Assembly: GCA_902603905.1 (NCBI GenBank) | Contig: CACKWM010000001.1 | Location: forward strand, 62,001 to 126,000 | Direction of reading: 5' to 3' | DNA from: an uncultured Pelagibacteraceae bacterium | GTDB lineage: Bacteria > Pseudomonadota > Alphaproteobacteria > Pelagibacterales > Pelagibacteraceae | Length of the DNA stretch: 64,000 nucleotides | Part shown: positions 22,541 to 48,712 of the stretch, in pieces | Layout of the letters: each line of letters begins with the position of its first letter | Numbering within the stretch: the first letter of the stretch is position 1 | Notes under the pieces: generated by a model | Database searches by the model: none | Seen by the model: only the letters and a program-made list of their open reading frames with translations | Told to the model about the DNA's origin: nothing | Translations under genes and position numbers: made by a program

Positions 22541-23002
22541 ATGTTTTTATCGACTTACGAGAACAAATTGGACAAAAAGGGAAGGGTGTCAGTGCCAGCT
22601 AACTTTAGATCATACCTTTCAAACTTAGGCTACAACGGAGTAGTTTGTTATCCATCATTTAATAATCAATCGATAGAGGCTTGGCCACAAGATAGAATAG
22701 AAAAAATTTCAGATGCAATTAATGCTTTAAATCCTTTTGAGGAGAAGAAAGATTACTTTGCAACATCAATACTATCAGAAAGTATTAATTTGCAATTTGA
22801 TAGTGAAGGAAGAATTTCTTTAACATCAAAATTATTAAAACATGCAAAGATTAAAAATAGCATGCTATTTGTTGGTCAAGGCAAAACATTTCAAATTTGG
22901 GAACCAATAATATTTGAAAAATTTAGGACACATGCAAGAAAAAAATCAAATCTAAATCGAGCAAGTCTTAAATGGGAACAAAAACTTAATAAACAACAAT
23001 AG
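22541..23002 (+). CDS. mraZ: MraZ transcriptional regulator of the dcw cluster
   Basis: MraZ is a ring-forming AbrB-fold DNA-binding protein that represses its own operon. The 153 residues hold two SpoVT/AbrB-like repeats: N-terminal YENKLDKKGRVSVPANFRSY, with the DKKGR hairpin used in DNA contact, and a second copy around NLQFDSEGRISLTSKLLKHA. Length is normal. It is first in the division operon and its operator is directly upstream. It is followed within 9 bases by ftsZ rather than by rsmH. Confidence 0.95.
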   Translation: MFLSTYENKLDKKGRVSVPANFRSYLSNLGYNGVVCYPSFNNQSIEAWPQDRIEKISDAINALNPFEEKKDYFATSILSESINLQFDSEGRISLTSKLLKHAKIKNSMLFVGQGKTFQIWEPIIFEKFRTHARKKSNLNRASLKWEQKLNKQQ

Positions 23003-23007
23003 AGGGG
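23001..23007 (+). promoter_or_regulatory. Strong Shine-Dalgarno of ftsZ
   Basis: AGAGGGG sits five bases before the ftsZ ATG at 23012. It is much stronger than most leaders in this window, which commonly show little or no Shine-Dalgarno, and fits high FtsZ production from the second gene of the operon. Confidence 0.7.
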
Positions 23008-23011
23008 AAAA

Positions 23012-24451
23012 ATGACAATTAACTTTAAACAACCGGAAATAAGAGAATTAAAACCAAGAATATTAGTTCTTGGGGTTGGAGGAGCTGGAGGAAATGCAAT
23101 CAATGGAATGATTGAGTCTGGACTTCAAGGTGTAGAATTTATTGCAGTAAATACTGATGCTCAAGATTTAAAACATAGTAAAGCAACACAAAAAATACAA
23201 ATTGGATTAAATCTAACAAAAGGTTTAGGAGCAGGATCTAAATTAGATATTGGTCAAGCTGCTGCAGATGAATCGCTAAATGACATTGTAAATACTTTAC
23301 AAGGTGCAAACATGGTTTTTATAACTGCTGGAATGGGTGGTGGAACTGGAACTGGATCAGCTCATGTAATTGCAAGAGCAGCAAAAGAACTAAATATATT
23401 AACAGTTGGAGTTGTGACATTGCCTTTCTTGTATGAAGGACCTTCAAGAATGAGAAGAGCACAACAAGGCCTTGAAGAATTAAGAAAACATGTTGATACA
23501 ATTATTGTAATTCCAAACCAAAATTTATTTAAAATTGCAAGTGAACAAACTACATTTGAAGAGTCTTTTGAACTTTCAAATGATGTATTATTGCATGGTG
23601 TCCAAAGTGTTACAGACTTAATGGTGAGACCAGGTTTGATAAATCTAGATTTTGCTGATGTTGAAACCGTTATGAGTTCCATGGGCAAAGCTATGATGGG
23701 AACTGGTCAAGCCGAAGGAGAAGGAAGAGCAGTTAAAGCAGCAGAAATGGCAATCAGCAATCCTTTAATAGACGATTATACTCTAAAAGGAGCCAAAGGT
23801 TTGTTAGTTAATATTACAGGCGGAAAAGATCTTAAACTTTTTGAAGTTGATGAAGCTGTAAATAAAGTAAGAGCTGAGGTTGATCCGGAAGCCGAATTAA
23901 TAATTGGTGCAATAACAGATTCTTCGCTTGATGGAAAAATGAGAGTTTCAATAGTTGCAACAGCTCTTGATGGTCAACAACCAGAAGCAAAATCGGTTAT
24001 AAACATGGTTCACAGAATACAAAATAGAAATCCAGGTTATTCAGATTTTTCTAACCTTGGGTCTGTGCAATCTTTTAACTTTTCAAACTCGATGTCTACA
24101 ACGGCAATAGATGGCGCTAATGCGTTAAAACTAGAAAATGAAATTGTGAATGAGGCAACGTCAGAGGTTTCTTCAACAGAAGAAATAAAAGATCTTAACC
24201 AAGAATATAATGAGCAAGTTTTAAACAATCAAGAAAGCAAAACAGAAGTAAATATTGAAGATAATCAAGAAGTGCAAAAACCTTCAAATGGTTTAGAAAA
24301 TTTTGCAATTGAAGATGATGAGGATCCAAAACTTTTTGATTCAGCAGATGACAGCTTTATTCAAGAACTTCCTTCATCTGATAAAGATAATAATAAATCT
24401 GAAGAAGATGATTTAGAAATACCAGCATTTTTGAGAAGACAGAAGAACTAA
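23012..24451 (+). CDS. ftsZ: Cell division protein FtsZ
   Basis: FtsZ is the tubulin-like GTPase that forms the Z-ring. In its 479 residues are the N-terminal [18 protein letters not shown], the tubulin signature [11 protein letters not shown] near residue 110, the T7 loop [13 protein letters not shown], and the core ending near residue 320 ([13 protein letters not shown]). A ~140-residue acidic, Asn/Glu-rich linker follows, then the conserved C-terminal peptide [11 protein letters not shown], which binds membrane anchors such as FtsA. All catalytic elements are intact. The location between mraZ and rsmH is unusual; normally it follows ftsA. Confidence 0.98.
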
Positions 24452-24469
24452 TGGTCTTCAAAAAAATAA

Positions 24470-25480
24470 ATGATTGCCACCATAATACCGAAAAGACAAA
24501 AACACTATTCGGTATTGCTAGATGAAATAATTAGCATTATTACCCCTCAATATGGTGGCACATTTATTGACTGCACATTAGGTCAAGGTGGATACACTAA
24601 AAAAATCCTTGAATTTTCAAATACAAAAATAATTGCTTTAGATAGAGACAGGGATACAAAAAAAATTGCACTAGAACTTGAAAAAAAATTTAAGAATAGG
24701 TTTATTTTTAAAAATAAAAAATTTAGTGAAATAAATGAGTTAGAATTAACAAAAGAAAAAATTAAAGCAGTAATTTTTGATCTTGGGTATTCATATACAC
24801 AAATAAAAGATCCCAAAAAGGGTTTGTCTTTTGATGCTTCGGGCGAACTTAACATGAAAATGGGTTTAAATAATTTTTCAGCAAAAGATGCTATTAATAA
24901 GTTAGATAAAAAATATTTAGAAAAAATATTTAAGTTTTTTGGTGAAGAAAGAGACAGTAAAAGAATTGCTTATAAAATTATTAAAGAAAGAAAAAAAAAA
25001 GAAATTGACACACAAAAATTGGTAAAAATCATAGAATCATCAAAAATAAAAAAAAACTATAAAATTCACAGTGCTACAAAGGTTTTTCAGGCTTTAAGAA
25101 TTTTTGTAAATAAAGAAATCAGTGAACTAATTTATGGATTAATTAATGCAGCTAGGGTTTTGGACGAAGGAGGAATTGTTGTAGTTGTAAGTTTTAATTC
25201 TTTAGAAGATAAAATAATTAAGTATTTTTTTAGAAGTTTGTCAGAAACAAAAAGCGTATCAAGATATATGCCTCAAGGAAAAAAAAAAAATAATCTATTT
25301 AAATTAACTAACAAAAAACCCATAACTCCGTCTACTAAAGAAATTGAGGAGAATAAACCCTCAAGATCAGCTAAACTAAGATTTGCTATTAAAGCAAAAA
25401 ATATTTCTAACTTTAAAACTGATATTTTAGATAAATTTAATTATTTAATTAAAATTGAAAATTATTCTGAAAAACTATGA
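24470..25480 (+). CDS. rsmH: 16S rRNA (cytosine-1402 N4) methyltransferase RsmH
   Basis: RsmH (MraW) methylates C1402 in the ribosomal P site using SAM. The 336 residues open with [14 protein letters not shown], then the SAM motif [22 protein letters not shown], and the substrate segment [14 protein letters not shown] near residue 118. The C-terminal part has [17 protein letters not shown] and [16 protein letters not shown]. Length is standard. It overlaps the start of ftsL by 4 bases. Confidence 0.95.
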
Positions 25481-27434: not shown

Positions 27435-30290
27435 ATGTTGATTGGTAGTTATTTTAAAAATCTTGATTCAAAATATAAGAATCATTTTTTTTCAGGTTTA
27501 AGCTTTAATAGTTTGACTTGTAAAAAAAATAATATTTTTTTTGCGATTATAGGAACAAAAATTGATGGTAAAAAATTTATTAAAAACGCAATAAAAAAGG
27601 GCGCAAGAACAATTGTATCAAATCAAAAATTTACAGGTTTAAAAAATAATATTCTTTATATAAGGGTTAAAAATGTCAGAAAAATACTTGCTGAAATTGC
27701 TTTTAATATTAATCAAAAAAAACCAAAAAATTTAATTGCTGTTACAGGAACTAATGGTAAATCATCAATAGTTGATTTTTATTTTCAGATATTAAAATTA
27801 AATAAAAAAAAGGTAGCCTCTATCGGAACTTTAGGAATTAAAACAATTTCAAGTAAAATAGGTGTGAATAACACAACATTAAATCCGATTGTACTTAGTT
27901 ACTATTTAAAAAAATTAAAAAAACAAAATATAGACAATGTTATTCTTGAAGCATCTAGTCATGGCCTCAAACAAAATCGTTTAGACGGATTAAATTTTAA
28001 AAGCGCTATTTTTACAAATCTATCTCACGATCATTTAGATTATCATAAAAATTTTAAAAATTACTTAAATGCAAAGTTATATCTTTTTAAAAAGTTGCTT
28101 AAGAAAAACTCAAATATTATTACAGATATAGCTATTCCAGAATATGAAAAAATTAAAAAAATTTCTTTAAAAAATAAATTAAATTTAAATACTATAGGTG
28201 CTAAAAAAGGTAACTTAAATATAATTAGTCATGAATATGAAAATGAAAAACAAATTATTAAAATTAAATATAAAAATAATTTTTTCATAATTAAAATAAA
28301 TTTAATAGGAAAAATTCAGATTAAAAATTTATTAATGGCAATGATTGCAGCAGAAAAAAGCAACATTAGTTTTAAAAATATTGTAAAAATTATTAACAAA
28401 GTAAAACCTGTTAATGGAAGATTGGAAAAAATTGGAAAAATTAGAAATAATTCTAGAGTTATTTTAGATTATGCTCATACACCAGATGCACTTAAAACAT
28501 GTCTTCAAAATTTAAAAAATCAATTTAAAAATAACAAAATTTCTATTGTTTTTGGATGTGGCGGAGATAGAGATAAATTTAAAAGGCCTTTAATGGGTAA
28601 AATTGTAAATAAATTTTGTAATAAAATTTATTTAACTGATGACAATCCAAGAAAAGAAAATCCAATAAAAATAAGAACAAGTATTAAAAGAAAAATTAAT
28701 AAATCAAAACTTTATGAAATACCTAGTAGAGAAAATGCAATTAAAGAAGCAATTAAAAATTTATTAACGGGAGAAATTTTAGTTGTAGCAGGAAAGGGAC
28801 ATGAAAATATTCAAGATTATGGAAACTTTAAAAATTTTTTTTCAGATAAAAAATGTATTTTAAAAAATATTAAACAAAAAAATAAATATTTATCAAAAGA
28901 CTTAAAATTAAATATTTTGAAAGAAGAAAGTGGTCAAAATCATATTTCGTTAAAAACAAAATTGAAGAATGCATCAATTAACTCAAAAGAAATAAAAAAA
29001 AATGATATTTTTTTTGCAATTAAAGGTAAAAAAAAAGATGGTAATCAATATTTAAGTGAAGTTTTTAAGAAAAAAGCATCGCTAGCAGTAGTACACAAAA
29101 TTAACAAACTAAAAAAAAAATCTAAACAAATAAAAGTAAAAAATACTTTGGACTTTCTAACAAAAACATCAAGCAAAATCCGAGAAAATTCATCAGCAAA
29201 AATAATTGCAATAACAGGCAGTTGTGGAAAAACATCACTGAAAGAATTAATTGGGATGGCACTTAGTAAAATTTGTAGTGTAACTTATTCACGTAAATCA
29301 TTTAATAATAAATTTGGAGTTCCATTAAGTTTGTTTAATTTGAAATTAAAGGATGATTATGGAGTTTTTGAAGTTGGTATGGATAAAAAGGGCGAAATAG
29401 ATAATCTAACAAAAATCATCAAACCAGAAGCTGGAGTAATTACAAATATTTCCTATGCACATGTAAAAAATTTTAAAAATTTAAAACAAATTGCACTCGC
29501 AAAGTCTGAAATAATGAACAACATTGTGAGTGGCGGTTCGATAGTTTTAAATGCTGATGATAGATTTTATAAATTTCATAGAAAAATTGCTTTAAGAAAA
29601 AAACTCAAAGTTTACTCATTTAGTGTGTTTAAAAAAAATACAACAGTTAATCTAATATCTATAAAAAAAGAAAAAACAAAATTTAAAGCTATTATAAATG
29701 TTAATAGTCAAAAAAAATATTTTTTTGTTTCATCTAATTTTGAAAATAAATTAAAAAATTTGCTTGCCGCCATAACAGTAATTTCAATTTTTAAGGATAT
29801 TAAAACTTTAAATAAAAATATTTTTTATAACTATCAAGTTCCACGCGGTCGTGGTGATTTTTCCAAGGTCAAGATAAATGGAAAGAATATTTTTCTTATT
29901 GATGAGAGTTATAATTCCAATCCTTTATCTTTAAAATCTTCCATTAATAATTTTGACTTAATCGATAGCAAAAATAATAAAAAACACTTAATTTTGGGCG
30001 ATATGCTAGAACTTGGTAGGTATTCAAAAAAATTGCACTTGGAAATGAGCACAATAATTAATTCTTCTTCAATCAATAACGTCCATGTTTTTGGCAAATA
30101 CATAAGAGAAACCTACAAAAATATTTACAACAAGAAAAAAGGATTAATTTTAAAAGAAATTTCACAAATAATTGATTTGATTAAAAACAATATAAATAAT
30201 AATGATTATTTAATGATTAAAGGGTCTAATGCTACAGGACTTCATAAATTAACTAGTAGTTTAAAAAAAGAAAGAAAAAATGTTTTATAA
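27435..30290 (+). CDS. murE-murF: Fused MurE-MurF peptidoglycan precursor ligase
   Basis: A single 951-residue frame contains two complete Mur ligases. Residues 1 to ~475 are MurE: P-loop VTGTNGKSS, LEASSHGLKQNRLDGL, the carbamylated-Lys region, FGCGGDRDKFKRP, and DDNPR, which specifies meso-diaminopimelate. Residues ~485-951 are MurF: P-loop ITGSCGKTSLKEL, FEVGMDKKGEID, NADD, DESYNSNPLSLKSS and LGDMLELG. The enzyme would add diaminopimelate and then D-Ala-D-Ala to UDP-MurNAc-dipeptide. The frame is clean with no internal restart needed. Such fusions exist in some other bacteria. Confidence 0.96.
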   Translation: MLIGSYFKNLDSKYKNHFFSGLSFNSLTCKKNNIFFAIIGTKIDGKKFIKNAIKKGARTIVSNQKFTGLKNNILYIRVKNVRKILAEIAFNINQKKPKNLIAVTGTNGKSSIVDFYFQILKLNKKKVASIGTLGIKTISSKIGVNNTTLNPIVLSYYLKKLKKQNIDNVILEASSHGLKQNRLDGLNFKSAIFTNLSHDHLDYHKNFKNYLNAKLYLFKKLLKKNSNIITDIAIPEYEKIKKISLKNKLNLNTIGAKKGNLNIISHEYENEKQIIKIKYKNNFFIIKINLIGKIQIKNLLMAMIAAEKSNISFKNIVKIINKVKPVNGRLEKIGKIRNNSRVILDYAHTPDALKTCLQNLKNQFKNNKISIVFGCGGDRDKFKRPLMGKIVNKFCNKIYLTDDNPRKENPIKIRTSIKRKINKSKLYEIPSRENAIKEAIKNLLTGEILVVAGKGHENIQDYGNFKNFFSDKKCILKNIKQKNKYLSKDLKLNILKEESGQNHISLKTKLKNASINSKEIKKNDIFFAIKGKKKDGNQYLSEVFKKKASLAVVHKINKLKKKSKQIKVKNTLDFLTKTSSKIRENSSAKIIAITGSCGKTSLKELIGMALSKICSVTYSRKSFNNKFGVPLSLFNLKLKDDYGVFEVGMDKKGEIDNLTKIIKPEAGVITNISYAHVKNFKNLKQIALAKSEIMNNIVSGGSIVLNADDRFYKFHRKIALRKKLKVYSFSVFKKNTTVNLISIKKEKTKFKAIINVNSQKKYFFVSSNFENKLKNLLAAITVISIFKDIKTLNKNIFYNYQVPRGRGDFSKVKINGKNIFLIDESYNSNPLSLKSSINNFDLIDSKNNKKHLILGDMLELGRYSKKLHLEMSTIINSSSINNVHVFGKYIRETYKNIYNKKKGLILKEISQIIDLIKNNINNNDYLMIKGSNATGLHKLTSSLKKERKNVL

Positions 30291-37176: not shown

Positions 37177-38093
37177 AAAAAAAAATTTTAATTTTAGGTG
37201 GCGGAATTTCTAAAGAAAGATTAATTAGTTTAGAAACAGCTAAAAGTGTATTTAAAGAATTAAAAAAAAAAAATTATAAAACTAAAATTTGTGAACCAGA
37301 TGGTAATTTAATAAAAAATATTAAAATTTTTAAACCAAACATTATTTTTAACGCTTTACACGGACAGTTTGGAGAAGATGGATATATCCAGGCAATACTA
37401 GAATCGCAAAAAATGAAATACACACATTCTGGAGTAATGGCATCATTTATTGCAATGAATAAGGAAATTTCAAAAAAACTTTATATAAAAAAAAAAATAC
37501 TTACACCAAAATATTTCAAATTTAAATTTAAAAATAATAAAATTGAAAAAAATATTATAAGCAAGACACAAAAAAAATTGAAATTCCCAGTTGTAATAAA
37601 GCCAATTAATGAAGGATCTAGTGTTAATGTTTTTATTTGTACTAAAAAAAATTTTATCAAAAACTTAAAAAAATTAGTCTTTTACAAAGAAATTTTGATT
37701 GAAGAATTTGTTCCAGGAAGAGAAATTCAGGTTGCAATCTTAGGTAAGAGAAAACTAGGGGCGATAGAACTAAAACCTAAAAGAAAATTTTATGATTATG
37801 AAGCCAAATATAATGAGAAGGCAAAAACTAAACATATTATTCCTGTTGATTTAAGTAAGAAAAATTTGCAAAAAGTCATGAATATAGCACGTAAAGCACA
37901 TAAGTTAATTGGTTGCAGAGGTGTTACAAGATCAGATTTTAAATTTTATAAAGATAAATTTTTTTTATTAGAAACAAATACACAGCCAGGTATGACAAAA
38001 CTTTCATTGGTGCCAGAGATAGCAAATTATAAGGGGATGAAATTTATTGATTTAATTGAATGGATTTTAAAAGATGCTTCAATCAATAGATAA
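37173..38093 (+). CDS. ddl: D-alanine-D-alanine ligase
   Basis: Ddl is an ATP-grasp enzyme making D-Ala-D-Ala. The 306 residues carry ILGGGISKERLISLETA, NALHGQFGEDGYIQAILE, YTHSGVMASFIAMNKEISK, VVIKPINEGSSVNVF, EILIEEFVPGREIQVAIL and the metal-binding FFLLETNTQPGMT near the C-terminus. It overlaps murB by 4 bases and ftsQ by 20. Confidence 0.95.
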   Translation: MKKKILILGGGISKERLISLETAKSVFKELKKKNYKTKICEPDGNLIKNIKIFKPNIIFNALHGQFGEDGYIQAILESQKMKYTHSGVMASFIAMNKEISKKLYIKKKILTPKYFKFKFKNNKIEKNIISKTQKKLKFPVVIKPINEGSSVNVFICTKKNFIKNLKKLVFYKEILIEEFVPGREIQVAILGKRKLGAIELKPKRKFYDYEAKYNEKAKTKHIIPVDLSKKNLQKVMNIARKAHKLIGCRGVTRSDFKFYKDKFFLLETNTQPGMTKLSLVPEIANYKGMKFIDLIEWILKDASINR

Positions 38094-38763
38094 AAAAAAA
38101 AAATTATTTATATATTTATTTTTCTTAGTTTTTTTAACTACAATTAACAATCTATCAATAAGTAATTCTGAATATTTAAAATTGAAAATTAATCAAATTA
38201 AAGTTTATGGGCTTAATGATGAAAGTAATTTTAATATTTCCGAAGAGTTTAATAGATTAATAAGTCAAAAAAATTTATTTTTTATAGATAAAGATTATTT
38301 TTTAAATGTTTTAAAAAAAAATAATTTAATTCATTCTTTCAAAGTTAAAAAAATTTACCCAAATACTATTGAGGTACAAATTCAAAAAACAAAATTCTTA
38401 GCGGTTACCAGGCATAAAGAAAAGAAATTCTTTATTGGATCTAATGGAAAGTTAATTAATTTTCAATCTTCTGATAAAAATTTACCTTATGTATACGGAA
38501 AAATTAAAGTTGAAGAATTTATTAAGTTTACAAAAATTGTTGTTAATTCTAAATTTAATTTTGAAGAAATTTCAGAGTTATTTTTTTTTCCATCTGGCAG
38601 ATGGGACGTTAAAACTAATAAAGACATATTAATTAAACTTCCTAAAAAAAATTTATTAAAAGCACTAAATTTTTCACATCATATGATTATTAATGAAAAT
38701 TTTAAAAATAGCAAAATTATTGATTTAAGAATTTATAACAATGTGATTTTAACCAATGAGTAA
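38074..38763 (+). CDS. ftsQ: Cell division protein FtsQ
   Basis: FtsQ is a bitopic scaffold linking FtsB/FtsL to the divisome. The 229 residues show a basic cytosolic start, one membrane segment (~10-28), a POTRA domain (KINQIKVYGLNDESNFN, NLFFIDKDYFLNVLKKNNL, KVKKIYPNTIEVQIQKTKFL) and the beta domain (FIGSNGKLINFQ). Conservation is weak as usual, but position between ddl and the FtsA-like gene and the POTRA pattern make it convincing. Confidence 0.88.
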   Translation: MLQSIDKKKKLFIYLFFLVFLTTINNLSISNSEYLKLKINQIKVYGLNDESNFNISEEFNRLISQKNLFFIDKDYFLNVLKKNNLIHSFKVKKIYPNTIEVQIQKTKFLAVTRHKEKKFFIGSNGKLINFQSSDKNLPYVYGKIKVEEFIKFTKIVVNSKFNFEEISELFFFPSGRWDVKTNKDILIKLPKKNLLKALNFSHHMIINENFKNSKIIDLRIYNNVILTNE

Positions 38764-39466
38764 AAAAAATTTTGACATTTATTTAGATTTAAGTTCTAAA
38801 AAATTAAGTATCGCTGCATTTAAAAAATTTGATAGTCATACAATTTTTTTTAAAGAATATGATTGTGAAACAAATTTAAATAAAAATAAATTAAATTTTG
38901 AAAATGTAAAAAAAACTTTAGAAAAAAATATTTTTGAAATAGAAAAAAAAACAGGTGAATTTTTAGAAGATATATATTTAATGGTAGAAACTCCAGAATC
39001 TATCTCAATTAACTTATCATTAATAAAAAATAATGAAGGAAAAAAAATTGAAAAGAAAAATGTTCAGTATTTAATTCAAGACGCGAGACAGCAAATTTTG
39101 AGAAACTATCATAACGAAAAAATTATTCATATTATTATTTCCAATTATCTTATTGATAATACTTCATATAATTATTTGCCTTTAAATTTAAATTGTAATA
39201 GATTTTCGATCGATATTAAATTTATTTGTTTTCCAAAAAATTTAATAAAAAAATTAGAAGAACTATTTAATAGTCATCAAATATTTATAAATAAAATCAT
39301 CTGCAGCCATTATGCTAAATCATTTAGCAAAAATGAACCTTATATGAATGTTTGTGAATCTGGATTGAAATTGATTAAAGGCACCAATAAACTAGAAGTT
39401 ACAATAGTTCCTAGAAAGCTAGAAAAGAAAGGCTTTTTTGAAAGACTTTTTCATTTTTTTAAATAA
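38756..39466 (+). CDS. Reduced FtsA-like protein lacking the ATPase domains
   Basis: This gene sits where ftsA belongs. The 236 residues align with FtsA in order. Residues ~5-25 (DIYLDLSSKKLSIAAF) match the first strands of domain 1A. Residues ~50-200 match the helix before domain 1C and the SHS2-like 1C domain itself (EDIYLMVETPESISINLSLI, KKNVQYLIQDARQQIL, KIIHIIISNYLIDN, then LIKKLEELFNSHQIFINKII). After residue ~205 a 30-residue linker leads to GFFERLFHFFK, an amphipathic helix like the FtsA membrane-targeting tail. Roughly 170-200 residues forming the rest of 1A, 2A and 2B are absent, and the DxGT phosphate motif is DLSS. The frame is intact and overlaps ftsQ by 8 bases, so decay is less likely than reduction. 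Function is inferred: a membrane anchor or divisome link without ATP-dependent polymerisation. Confidence 0.75.
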   Translation: MSKKNFDIYLDLSSKKLSIAAFKKFDSHTIFFKEYDCETNLNKNKLNFENVKKTLEKNIFEIEKKTGEFLEDIYLMVETPESISINLSLIKNNEGKKIEKKNVQYLIQDARQQILRNYHNEKIIHIIISNYLIDNTSYNYLPLNLNCNRFSIDIKFICFPKNLIKKLEELFNSHQIFINKIICSHYAKSFSKNEPYMNVCESGLKLIKGTNKLEVTIVPRKLEKKGFFERLFHFFK

Positions 39467-39531: not shown

Positions 39532-40452
39532 ATGTCAGTTTTGAATCAAAAAACACTTAATAAGACAATAGTATTTGATGGTGTTGGCCTTCATAGTGGA
39601 AAAAAAGTTCATCTTGAAATTAAACCTGCAAAACCTAACACAGGTATAGTTTTTAAAAGAATCGATATAACAAATAATAATCTTGTAATCCCCGGGGTTT
39701 TTAATGTGAGCAGTGCAGCTTATTGCACAACTATTTCAAATGATTCAGGAGTTATAGTTTCAACAATTGAGCATTTAATGGGTGCATTGTTTGGAATGGG
39801 AATCGACAATGTAATGATTGAAATTAATAGTGAAGAGGTTCCAATTTTAGATGGTTCAGCAAAAGAATATGTTAATGAAATTAATAGAGTTGGGATAAAA
39901 ACAAGCGAAACTCCAATTAAAATTATAAAGATTGAAAAAAAAATTAATTTTAAAGATGGAAAAAAAACAATTTCAATAGAACCAAATAAAATTAGTTTAG
40001 ATATAGATTTTGAAATTAAGTATGAAAATTCACTAATAGAAACACAAAGAAATTTAGTTAAAGTTTATGAAGACGATTTAACAGAAGTTTATAATTCAAG
40101 AACGTTTTGTCTTTTTGAAGATATAGAAAAATTAAAAAAAATGAATTTAGCGAAAGGTGGAACTTTAGAAAATGCCATTGTTGTAAAAGGAGACAAAATT
40201 TTAAACGAAAATGGCCTTAGAAATAAAAATGAGTTTGTAAATCATAAAATTTTAGACTGCATGGGAGATCTATATTTATCAGGATATAAAATTATTGGAA
40301 AATTAATATGTTCGCAGGGTGGACATAAGCTTACAAACCAACTATTAAGAAGAGTTTTTCAAGATAATGCTAACTTTTCAATTGTTGAAGTTAAAGAAAA
40401 AAATATCCCTCATTTCCTAATCAATAGAAATATTTTAAAATCAACAGCATAA
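39532..40452 (+). CDS. lpxC: UDP-3-O-acyl-N-acetylglucosamine deacetylase LpxC
   Basis: LpxC is the zinc deacetylase committing to lipid A synthesis. The 306 residues have NKTIVFDGVGLHSGKKVHLE at the start, the first zinc His and catalytic Glu region in STIEHLMGALFGMGIDN, the VPILDGSAKEYV stretch, and the zinc pair in VNHKILDCMGDLYLSG, followed by the catalytic His in SQGGHKLTNQLL. Complete and of normal length. A 65-base gap before it is the largest within the division block after mraZ and may hold a promoter I cannot define. Confidence 0.96.
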   Translation: MSVLNQKTLNKTIVFDGVGLHSGKKVHLEIKPAKPNTGIVFKRIDITNNNLVIPGVFNVSSAAYCTTISNDSGVIVSTIEHLMGALFGMGIDNVMIEINSEEVPILDGSAKEYVNEINRVGIKTSETPIKIIKIEKKINFKDGKKTISIEPNKISLDIDFEIKYENSLIETQRNLVKVYEDDLTEVYNSRTFCLFEDIEKLKKMNLAKGGTLENAIVVKGDKILNENGLRNKNEFVNHKILDCMGDLYLSGYKIIGKLICSQGGHKLTNQLLRRVFQDNANFSIVEVKEKNIPHFLINRNILKSTA

Positions 40453-47125: not shown

Positions 47126-48712
47126 ATGAAAAAAATTAAAATAAAATTTTCCAATGAACTCTTTAAACTAAAAAATTTCTTTATCGATAAATTTAAAAAA
47201 TTAAATAAATTTATAGAATCAAAAATTGTTAAATTTATCAATAAACACTTTCCTAGCAAATTAAACAAATATAAAAAATTTAAAAACATTAAATTTATTA
47301 ATATTAGTAATTTAAGCATGTCTATAATACTTTTTATTGCTATATTATTTGTATATTTATTTTATGTATCAATACCAACATTATATAATAAAGGAGTATT
47401 ACAAAAAGACATAACTGATAAGCTAATAAAAGAATTTAAAATTGATTTTAGCTTATCGTCAAAAATAAGATATTTTATTCTTCCATCTCCACATTTTTTG
47501 ATAGAAAATGTTAAGATTTTTGATAATAACTTAAAAGAACCAAAAGAACTAAGTCAGATAAAAAAATTAAAAATTTATATATCACAAAAAAATTTGTTTG
47601 ATCGAAATAACTTAAAAATAACTAAAATATTAATAGAAGATGCAAATTTTATCTTTCAAGAAAATCATACTAAATTTTATAATAATTATATAAAAAATCA
47701 ATTTTCAAAAAAAAAATTTATTATTAAAAATAGTAATTTTTTTTTAAAAGATAGCAATCATAATATAATTGCTCTGGTTCCAATCAAAAATATTAATCTG
47801 TTTTATCACGAAAAAAAATCAGCTAATCAAATTATTGCAAAAGGAAAAGTTTTTAAAATTCCATTTGATATAAATTGGTACAGAAATTTTGAAAATAAAA
47901 CCAAGTCAGTAACTTTGATAAAATTAAAAAAATTGGATTTAGAAATAATAAATAAATCTTTAATCAAAGATAAAAAATATATAGCAAAAAATAGTATTTT
48001 TTTTAGAAACGCCAAACTGCATTCCAATTTTCAAATTCAAAATAATATAATAAGATTTAAATCAGAGAATTCTAAAATTGTTAATAGCAATTTAGACTAT
48101 ACTGGACAGATTGATATTGATCCATCTCATATAAAATTAGAAATAAATTTAGATAATTTAAACTTAATTAAGTTTTTAATTTCAAGTTTTGATTTTATTA
48201 AATCTCTAAATGTAGATTTTTTGTTTAATAAAAATTTAAGCGCCAACATTGATATAAAATCAAACAATATTCATAACAAATTATTTGATTTTGCAAAAAT
48301 ATTGATAAATTTTGATAACGGAAAAATAAATTTTAATAATTCTATTTTAAAAAGCAAAAAGATAGGCTTTTTAAAATTAACTGAAAGCAATTTGGATTTT
48401 ATTGATGAAAAGTTAATATTTGAAGGTAGTTTTAATTTTAATGTGACTGATCAAAAAAAATTTTATACCGCTTTTCAAATTCCAAAAAAAAAAAGAAAAT
48501 TATTGAAAAATATTTTTTTTGATATTCAACTTGATTCATCTAGAAATAAATTAAATATTAATAATTTTAATATTAATAATAAAAAAAATATTGTAAATGA
48601 AAATACTATTAACATTTTAAATCAATACAATCATAACAAAGAAAATAAAATTCAAAACTGGATAAATTTAAAAAATTTTACTAGAGAAATTTTTAACAGT
48701 TATTTTGGATAG
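47126..48712 (+). CDS. AsmA-like envelope protein
   Basis: This 528-residue protein has a highly basic ~60-residue N-terminus, one membrane helix (residues ~66-86: [20 protein letters not shown]) and a long beta-rich periplasmic part. The section after the helix ([18 protein letters not shown]-like, then [17 protein letters not shown]) and repeated strand patterns resemble the AsmA/TamB group, thought to move phospholipids to the outer membrane. Similarity is by pattern, not a clear motif, so function is tentative. The sequence is extremely Lys/Asn/Ile-rich. It is divergent from uvrD and overlaps the fumC end by 13 bases. Confidence 0.6.

Follow-up and report, generated by a model that had tools for sequence, protein, structure and literature searches.

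How much of FtsA does a bacterium need in order to divide? FtsA is usually viewed as an ATP-binding, polymerising relative of actin in which domain IIB anchors FtsZ, and the question is raised by a locus within a stretch of 64,000 nucleotides (hereafter, the window) from an uncultured Pelagibacteraceae (SAR11) bacterium (contig CACKWM010000001.1 of assembly GCA_902603905.1, positions 62,001 to 126,000 of the forward strand). The gene at the ftsA position of the window (38756..39466, forward strand) starts with ATG, comprises 236 codons, shares its first 8 bases with the end of ftsQ, and encodes an FtsA that consists of domain I only, which is referred to below as short FtsA. The results show that this gene is an orthologue descended from full-length FtsA, which has kept domain I and the sequence of the membrane helix and has lost domains IIA and IIB together with the ATP motif, and that purifying selection acts on short forms across a large part of the genus. 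We infer, with a probability of roughly 65%, that the product is a working FtsA without domain II, which would act as an ATP-free, non-polymerising membrane adaptor, FtsZ being tethered in another way.

The assignment is based on Pfam, sequence alignment, the predicted fold, and profile comparison. The Pfam model of domain IC (SHS2_FTSA) matches residues 86-157 of the protein with 28.4 bits (cut-off, 25.4), and in the AlphaFold2 (AF2) model domain IC spans residues 86-172 (39011..39271), between two segments of domain IA. The first segment (residues 1-85, 38756..39010, delimited by the secondary structure of the model and residue counts) is the N-terminal part of domain IA, in which the phosphate-1 motif has decayed to DLSS. 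The second (residues 173-189, 39272..39322, delimited by the model and by alignment with L027, a full-length FtsA of 378 residues from the same genus) comprises a strand and the start of a helix after IC. At the junction that follows (39323..39349), a domain II of approximately 142 residues is missing, as seen both in the alignment of short and long forms and in the pairwise alignment with L027. The C-terminal IA helix (residues 199-208, 39350..39379) is retained according to the model and to structural and pairwise alignments, and it leads through a linker (residues 209-225, 39380..39430; model and conservation) to the C-terminal amphipathic helix GFFERLFHFFK (residues 226-236, 39431..39463; conservation and hydrophobic moment), an expected membrane binder. 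All of these features lie on the forward strand.

Alignment with L027 pairs residues 1-189 with residues 1-189 and residues 197-236 with residues 339-378; 129 of the 235 aligned residues are identical (55%), and one internal block of approximately 142 residues is absent. In the model of the long form (predicted local distance difference test score, pLDDT, 87.6), the edges of this block lie shortly ahead of the first strand past IA/IC and shortly ahead of the helix leading into the linker, borders that we read, on the model, as the probable start of IIA and the last IA helix. Profiles of 68 short forms (from 74 distinct ones, with 6 near-duplicates omitted) and of 48 long forms (46 of 51, other genera included, plus two from the sister family) match each other over columns 5-192 with a probability of 100 and an E-value of 1.3e-44. 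At E<=0.01, PF14450 (domain II) is found in none of the 68 short forms and in 46 of the 48 long forms, whereas the Pfam IC domain is found in 28/68 and 30/48, respectively. Moreover, the ftsQ-ftsA-lpxC order is kept in relatives, which supports orthology.

The predicted fold leads to the same assignment. The AF2 model of the short protein has a mean pLDDT of 88.9 and a predicted template modelling score (pTM) of 0.82, and Foldseek against the PDB places solved FtsA chains in its first 19 rows (best E-value, 8.7e-13). The predicted fold is thus that of FtsA domain I, and the unrelated fold that would have refuted the initial annotation did not appear. In VIA-align, the first 11 rows are all FtsA entries (Z 13.9-16.2), and Vibrio maritimus FtsA (7q6i_D) aligns over 202 residues with a Z of 14.8 and a root-mean-square deviation of 2.6 Å, residues 5-210 of the model lying on residues 8-389. 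Because these 202 residues are distributed over positions 8-389, essentially all of domain I is present, and only domain II has been excised. PilM (best Z, 12.4) and cytoplasmic EpsL (11.0, level with reactivating factors and kinases of the actin fold at Z 11.2-11.4) come after FtsA, and the short-form sequence profile itself matches FtsA in the PDB (7q6d, E-value 5.3e-6). The initial annotation, made from the DNA letters alone, had described a 236-residue gene at the ftsA position with a 1C domain, the C-terminal amphipathic helix, DLSS in place of DxGT, and no 2A/2B, all of which is borne out. Its remark that the first strands of domain 1A are kept is also correct, but the further claim that the rest of 1A is gone was too strong, the C-terminal IA helix being retained.

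Is the short form a peculiarity of one genome? Its absence from relatives would have spoken against the initial annotation, but it is common among them. Among 115 genomes of the genus (114 of at least 90% completeness plus the window's own draft genome, which is 61% complete), 106 match; 65 carry an intact short form (220-245 residues, stop to stop), 30 carry an intact long form (370-401 residues), 11 are partial, cut by a contig end or frame-broken, and the remaining 9 are unmatched. The long forms of same-genus relatives span 367-401 residues overall. Among 80 named loci, 66 are readable (37 short and 29 long), and 14 have no readable ftsQ-lpxC interval. Candidatus Pelagibacter ubique HTCC9565 has the long form (368 residues), and the single cells AAA795-E22, -M22, and -F16 have the short one (232-236 residues). 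A wider survey of 299 genomes of at least 80% completeness gave 256 matches. In the sister family, 21/24 genomes match the 1C model, and all 21 frames have 397-403 residues; in other genera of the family, matched frames have 357-764 residues, except those of G079 (320) and G078 (216), which lie close to contig starts. At the level of the class, the Pfam 1C model matches 268/289 genomes (21 are without a match), and among the matches listed, the best of the 268, all frames have at least 414 residues except those of G629, G636, and G555, which, judged from coordinates alone, are contig-edge pieces. Short forms may nevertheless occur outside the genus because the Pfam 1C model used in the class survey misses many of them, those of G063 and G077 included. 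Loss of ftsA was considered for 11 unmatched genomes, a check that leaves out G716, G723, and G329, and was rejected since contig-end cuts and loci probably missing from the assemblies appear to account for most of them. In five, lpxC was found; for example, the long form of G129 is cut by a contig end (as read by eye in the DNA), as is the gene of G147, and in G191 lpxC stands at a contig start. From the six without lpxC (G178, G180, G188, G210, G161, and G207), the locus is probably lacking in the assembly.

The incompleteness of the window's own genome might suggest an artefact of assembly or gene calling, or a gene split in two, with its other half at a different place. The chance of this is practically negligible: the same short form is present in the one-contig genomes G063, G077, G095, and G123, which rules out a fragmented or mis-assembled gene, and the neighbouring genes are intact. 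With respect to a split gene, a PF14450 search of 11 near-complete short-form genomes revealed neither a second FtsA nor a detached domain II, so the full FtsA elsewhere that would have refuted the initial annotation did not turn up. In 10 of these genomes the search returned one open reading frame (ORF) of 344-366 residues each, with DnaK-sized ORFs in some. The former is MreB, with MreC adjoining, in the two loci read (L234 and L235), and the matches of 642-652 residues are taken, from their size only, to be DnaK; G156, a draft short-form genome, gave no PF14450 match at all. In three long-form and three outgroup genomes, the same search also yielded the ftsA locus.

Given that the short gene is real, is it still functional? 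The ratio of nonsynonymous to synonymous substitution rates (dN/dS, Nei-Gojobori; pairs accepted only with dS 0.05-1.2 and overlapping 4-mers) has a median of 0.204 for short ftsA (range 0.124-0.473, over 62 non-independent pairs), and the frame is intact in many species. The short forms are therefore under purifying selection, and the initial proposal of a functional part with a clean frame overlapping ftsQ is supported. Around the phosphate-1 motif, decay accompanies the loss of domain II: D11, G13, and R18 are present in 29/30, 30/30, and 29/30 long forms but only in 3/46, 4/46, and 0/46 short forms, respectively. K16 is less telling (24/30 long, 31/46 short), and the window protein, with DLSS, has kept D11 and has S13 for G. 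In contrast, E63, S88, H125, F156, F228, F232, and F235 occur at 93-100% in both short and long forms, and the three phenylalanines of the membrane helix (F228, F232, and F235) are 97-100% conserved. The hydrophobic moment of GFFERLFHFFK is 0.688, compared with a mean of 0.337 for shuffled sequences, of which 2.3% reach it, and both sequence and model are consistent with a predicted C-terminal amphipathic helix that targets the membrane.

The distribution of the short form raises the question of whether domain II was lost once or repeatedly. When trees are built from the neighbouring genes (3 genes with 85 rows; 14 division and cell wall (dcw) cluster genes with 59 rows), long and short forms are interleaved, which requires at least five changes, and the 14-gene tree rejects a single short clade by 759 log units (approximately unbiased (AU) test on 45 of the 59 rows, p 5e-35). 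These results favour several independent losses at nearly the same place in SAR11 lineages. The FtsA tree on shared columns (79 of the 85 rows, 6 far-genus rows omitted) points the other way: all 46 short forms constitute one clade nested among long forms with a Shimodaira-Hasegawa-like approximate likelihood ratio test (SH-aLRT) value of 100, and in a subset of 28 short forms from which the ATP-loop columns were removed, the value is 98. When clades of the species tree, defined with the trees already in view, were imposed on FtsA (AU tests on 52 of the 79 rows, 30 of 230 columns removed), one was rejected (p 0.0023), whereas a clade joining the window's group to its long-form relatives (p 0.20) and likewise a larger clade, A+B (p 0.17), were compatible with the data, as independent losses would predict. 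The junction stretch, with 30 residues in 29 and 31 residues in 17 of the 46 short forms, also speaks against separate losses, although parallel decay could draw short forms together on the FtsA tree as well. On balance, independent losses appear less likely, and one loss of domain II, probably followed by exchange of ftsA alleles between lineages, fits best.

How might such a protein work, and what holds FtsZ? The FtsZ tail docks on domain IIB of FtsA, and the solved complex (4A2A) is among the Foldseek matches of the short-protein model. Since IIB is gone, the known docking mode is unavailable, and the FtsZ C-terminal peptide would have to dock elsewhere, either on a new site of short FtsA or on another tether. 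The peptide itself has not been lost, as the initial annotation had noted. In the window, it occupies 13 residues (24410..24448, forward strand; ORF reading and motif search) at the end of ftsZ (23012..24451, forward strand; Pfam Tubulin over cut-off), and the motif is present in 34/34 short-form (including G012, whose ftsA is broken), 8/8 long-form, and 8/8 outgroup regions with a readable FtsZ. In studied FtsA proteins, the FtsN tail binds the cleft between IA and IC, and filament contacts are lateral between IC and IC and longitudinal between IIA and IIB (PMC7613929). The half retained in short FtsA would thus be the recruiting one, and the half lost the polymerising, ATP-binding, and FtsZ-docking one. 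The structural parts for ATP-dependent polymerisation, i.e., the IIA-IIB contact and the ATP site, are absent, and because the longitudinal contacts are gone, no FtsA filaments of the known kind are expected. The C-terminal helix would bind the membrane, and the IA-IC half would recruit or activate downstream proteins such as FtsQLB and FtsWI, so that short FtsA would be comparable to an FtsA*-like adaptor that is always monomeric. Weaker self-interaction of FtsA mutants can raise activity (PMC5832921), and FtsA has been proposed to act on FtsW and, as a monomer, to recruit downstream proteins (PMC10591338).

An alternative is that short FtsA still tethers FtsZ, the peptide docking on a new site of domain I, e.g., the IA face bared by the loss of domain II. 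In this case, the anchor would have survived the loss of polymerisation and ATP binding, and conservation of the FtsZ peptide and of the membrane helix is in keeping with it. The obvious replacement tethers were also sought and rejected: ZipA (ZipA_C, PF04354) has no match at E<=1 in 16 genomes, and SepF (PF04472) has none over cut-off in 18 genomes (six weak matches at E<=1, best E-value 0.06), a search for replacements that covered these two proteins and not MinC, ZapA, FzlA, FzlC, or FtsEX. On the other hand, conservation of the peptide does not point to FtsA because elsewhere among bacteria it serves other partners; it is read by SlmA, by ZipA, and in lateral FtsZ contacts, and MinC is likened to SlmA (PMC5832921). 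In addition, only a few residues, among them K64, F69, I176, Y186, G209, N211, and E214, show clearly higher conservation in the short forms than in the long ones. Docking on domain I is thus a tentative possibility, and an ATP-free adaptor with FtsZ tethered in another way is the preferred reading.

Several findings weigh against that reading. Domain models recognise the short forms poorly: 40/68 have no match to the Pfam 1C model at E<=0.01, the NCBIfam ftsA equivalog TIGR01174 gives the window protein 44.6 bits against a cut-off of 175.85, and for the short forms L036 and L034 NCBIfam gives no family match and a weak one, respectively. The TIGR01174 cut-off is also missed by the full-length L027 (103 bits) and L009 (169.6). 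Because these matches are weak or missing, the more distant short forms have been assigned through alignment and position. Furthermore, no canonical FtsN was found via the SPOR domain in 16 genomes (8 match at E<=0.1, 5 of them over cut-off), which may leave the IA-IC cleft without its main known partner. FtsN has, in addition, been proposed to work by promoting FtsA double filaments (PMC7613929, in the part concerned), a mode of action barred to short FtsA because IIA and IIB are missing. Domain I conservation is modest (mean majority-residue frequency 0.44-0.50). The dN/dS of short ftsA is slightly above that of long ftsA (0.163, 25 pairs), near that of ftsQ (0.196 in 48 short-form pairs; 0.241 in 14 pairs of long-form genomes), and far above that of lpxC (0.072, 134 pairs). 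Finally, two short-form genomes, the closed G012 (ftsQ-lpxC interval, L198) and G725 (C5:7426-8119), have a broken ftsA frame. The evolution faster than that of lpxC and the two frame breaks are what would be expected if the short gene were an evolutionary relic, whose remainder is kept for a minor or structural role while drifting to loss. Such a relic is nonetheless improbable in view of purifying selection at a median of 0.20 over the 62 pairs, of 65 genomes with an intact frame, and of the confident fold and nearly invariant phenylalanines of the membrane helix.

Two of these points have side observations attached to them. The broken frames of G012 and G725 may represent either sequencing error or real decay. 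The eight SPOR loci (L241-L248) encode lipoprotein-like proteins of approximately 250-280 residues, flanked by lytic transglycosylase-like and carboxypeptidase-like genes, labels that come from reading the sequences.

The surroundings of the gene are those of a dcw cluster, in which it holds the place typical of ftsA, after ddl-ftsQ. Upstream lies ftsQ (38074..38763, forward strand; Pfam POTRA_1 and FtsQ_DivIB_C), which runs 8 bases into ftsA, and the gene on the 3' side is lpxC (39532..40452, forward strand; Pfam LpxC). The initial annotation placed ftsZ in the same operon; it does belong to the same dcw cluster, at its head, but lies 14 kb upstream, with mraZ and mraW on its two sides, and does not adjoin ftsA. 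The mraZ-ftsZ-mraW group (22541-24470, forward strand), with ftsZ away from ftsA, is the same in the genus and outgroup regions read, and the usual order in most of 59 regions is mraZ-ftsZ-mraW-ftsL-ftsI-murE/F-mraY-murD-ftsW-murG-murC-murB-ddl-ftsQ-ftsA-lpxC-bamD. In a few of these regions, single cluster genes were undetected by the search used or were cut by contig ends, and an extra weak murE/F match in region L176 was dismissed as a search artefact. In the window, murE and murF apparently form one fused ORF of 951 residues (27435-30290, forward strand); the murE/F frames have 853-965 residues in same-genus regions with the whole gene, whereas separate frames of approximately 460-475 residues are found in some outgroup regions (L213-L215, L223). 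The cluster is interrupted just upstream of murB in the short-form genomes G340 (L181, upstream of 14315) and G397 (L204), where 14.3 and 4.5 kb, respectively, contain no detected cluster genes, and other genes replace murC and those before it. Farther downstream in the window, an ORF of 528 residues (47126-48712, forward strand) has no Pfam match at E<=1.

What does the short form mean for division in general? An abundant free-living group has dropped exactly the half of FtsA that binds ATP, forms filaments, and anchors FtsZ, and has kept the remainder, a sign that a far simpler FtsA than the textbook form can suffice for bacterial division. The odds are about even that much of SAR11 divides via an ATP-free domain I core of FtsA, with the FtsZ ring resting on an undescribed contact and the allele spread by recombination. 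If the reading is true, a natural deletion splits the functions of FtsA and leaves a membrane adaptor and activator that would work without filaments or ATP. It also raises the testable question of how FtsZ is tethered and would offer reconstitution and minimal-cell studies a small core, and the long and short relatives inside one genus provide a ready comparison. The open-licence literature searched yielded no report of a short FtsA in SAR11; the window's protein may have been overlooked because the NCBI FtsA model scores it far below its cut-off.

Compared with known systems, short FtsA shares with canonical FtsA (Escherichia coli 7Q6D, V. maritimus 7Q6F/7Q6I, and Thermotoga maritima 1E4F) the domain I fold, the C-terminal helix, and the place after ftsQ, but it has 236 rather than approximately 420 residues, its ATP motif has decayed, and IIA/IIB, the longitudinal interface, and the known FtsZ dock are absent. 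The full-length FtsA proteins of the same genus (L027, L024, L030, and L031; 368-378 residues) are orthologues with at most 55% identity and with the same neighbours and helix; unlike the short form, they keep PF14450 and a DxGSSK-like phosphate-1 motif. Beyond FtsA, PilM and cytoplasmic GspL/EpsL are actin-like membrane-platform adaptors of type IV pili and type II secretion, respectively, as described in the relevant part of PMC4471445. Both PilM and EpsL are weaker structural matches to short FtsA than FtsA is. Cytoplasmic EpsL (229-238 residues in its entries) is another small actin-like protein, although probably shortened along a different route. A functional parallel may be drawn with E. 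coli FtsA* and similar mutants, in which self-assembly is weaker and division activity is kept or raised (PMC5832921, in the part cited above); these are, however, point mutants of the full-length protein, whereas short FtsA is naturally without the whole polymerising half.
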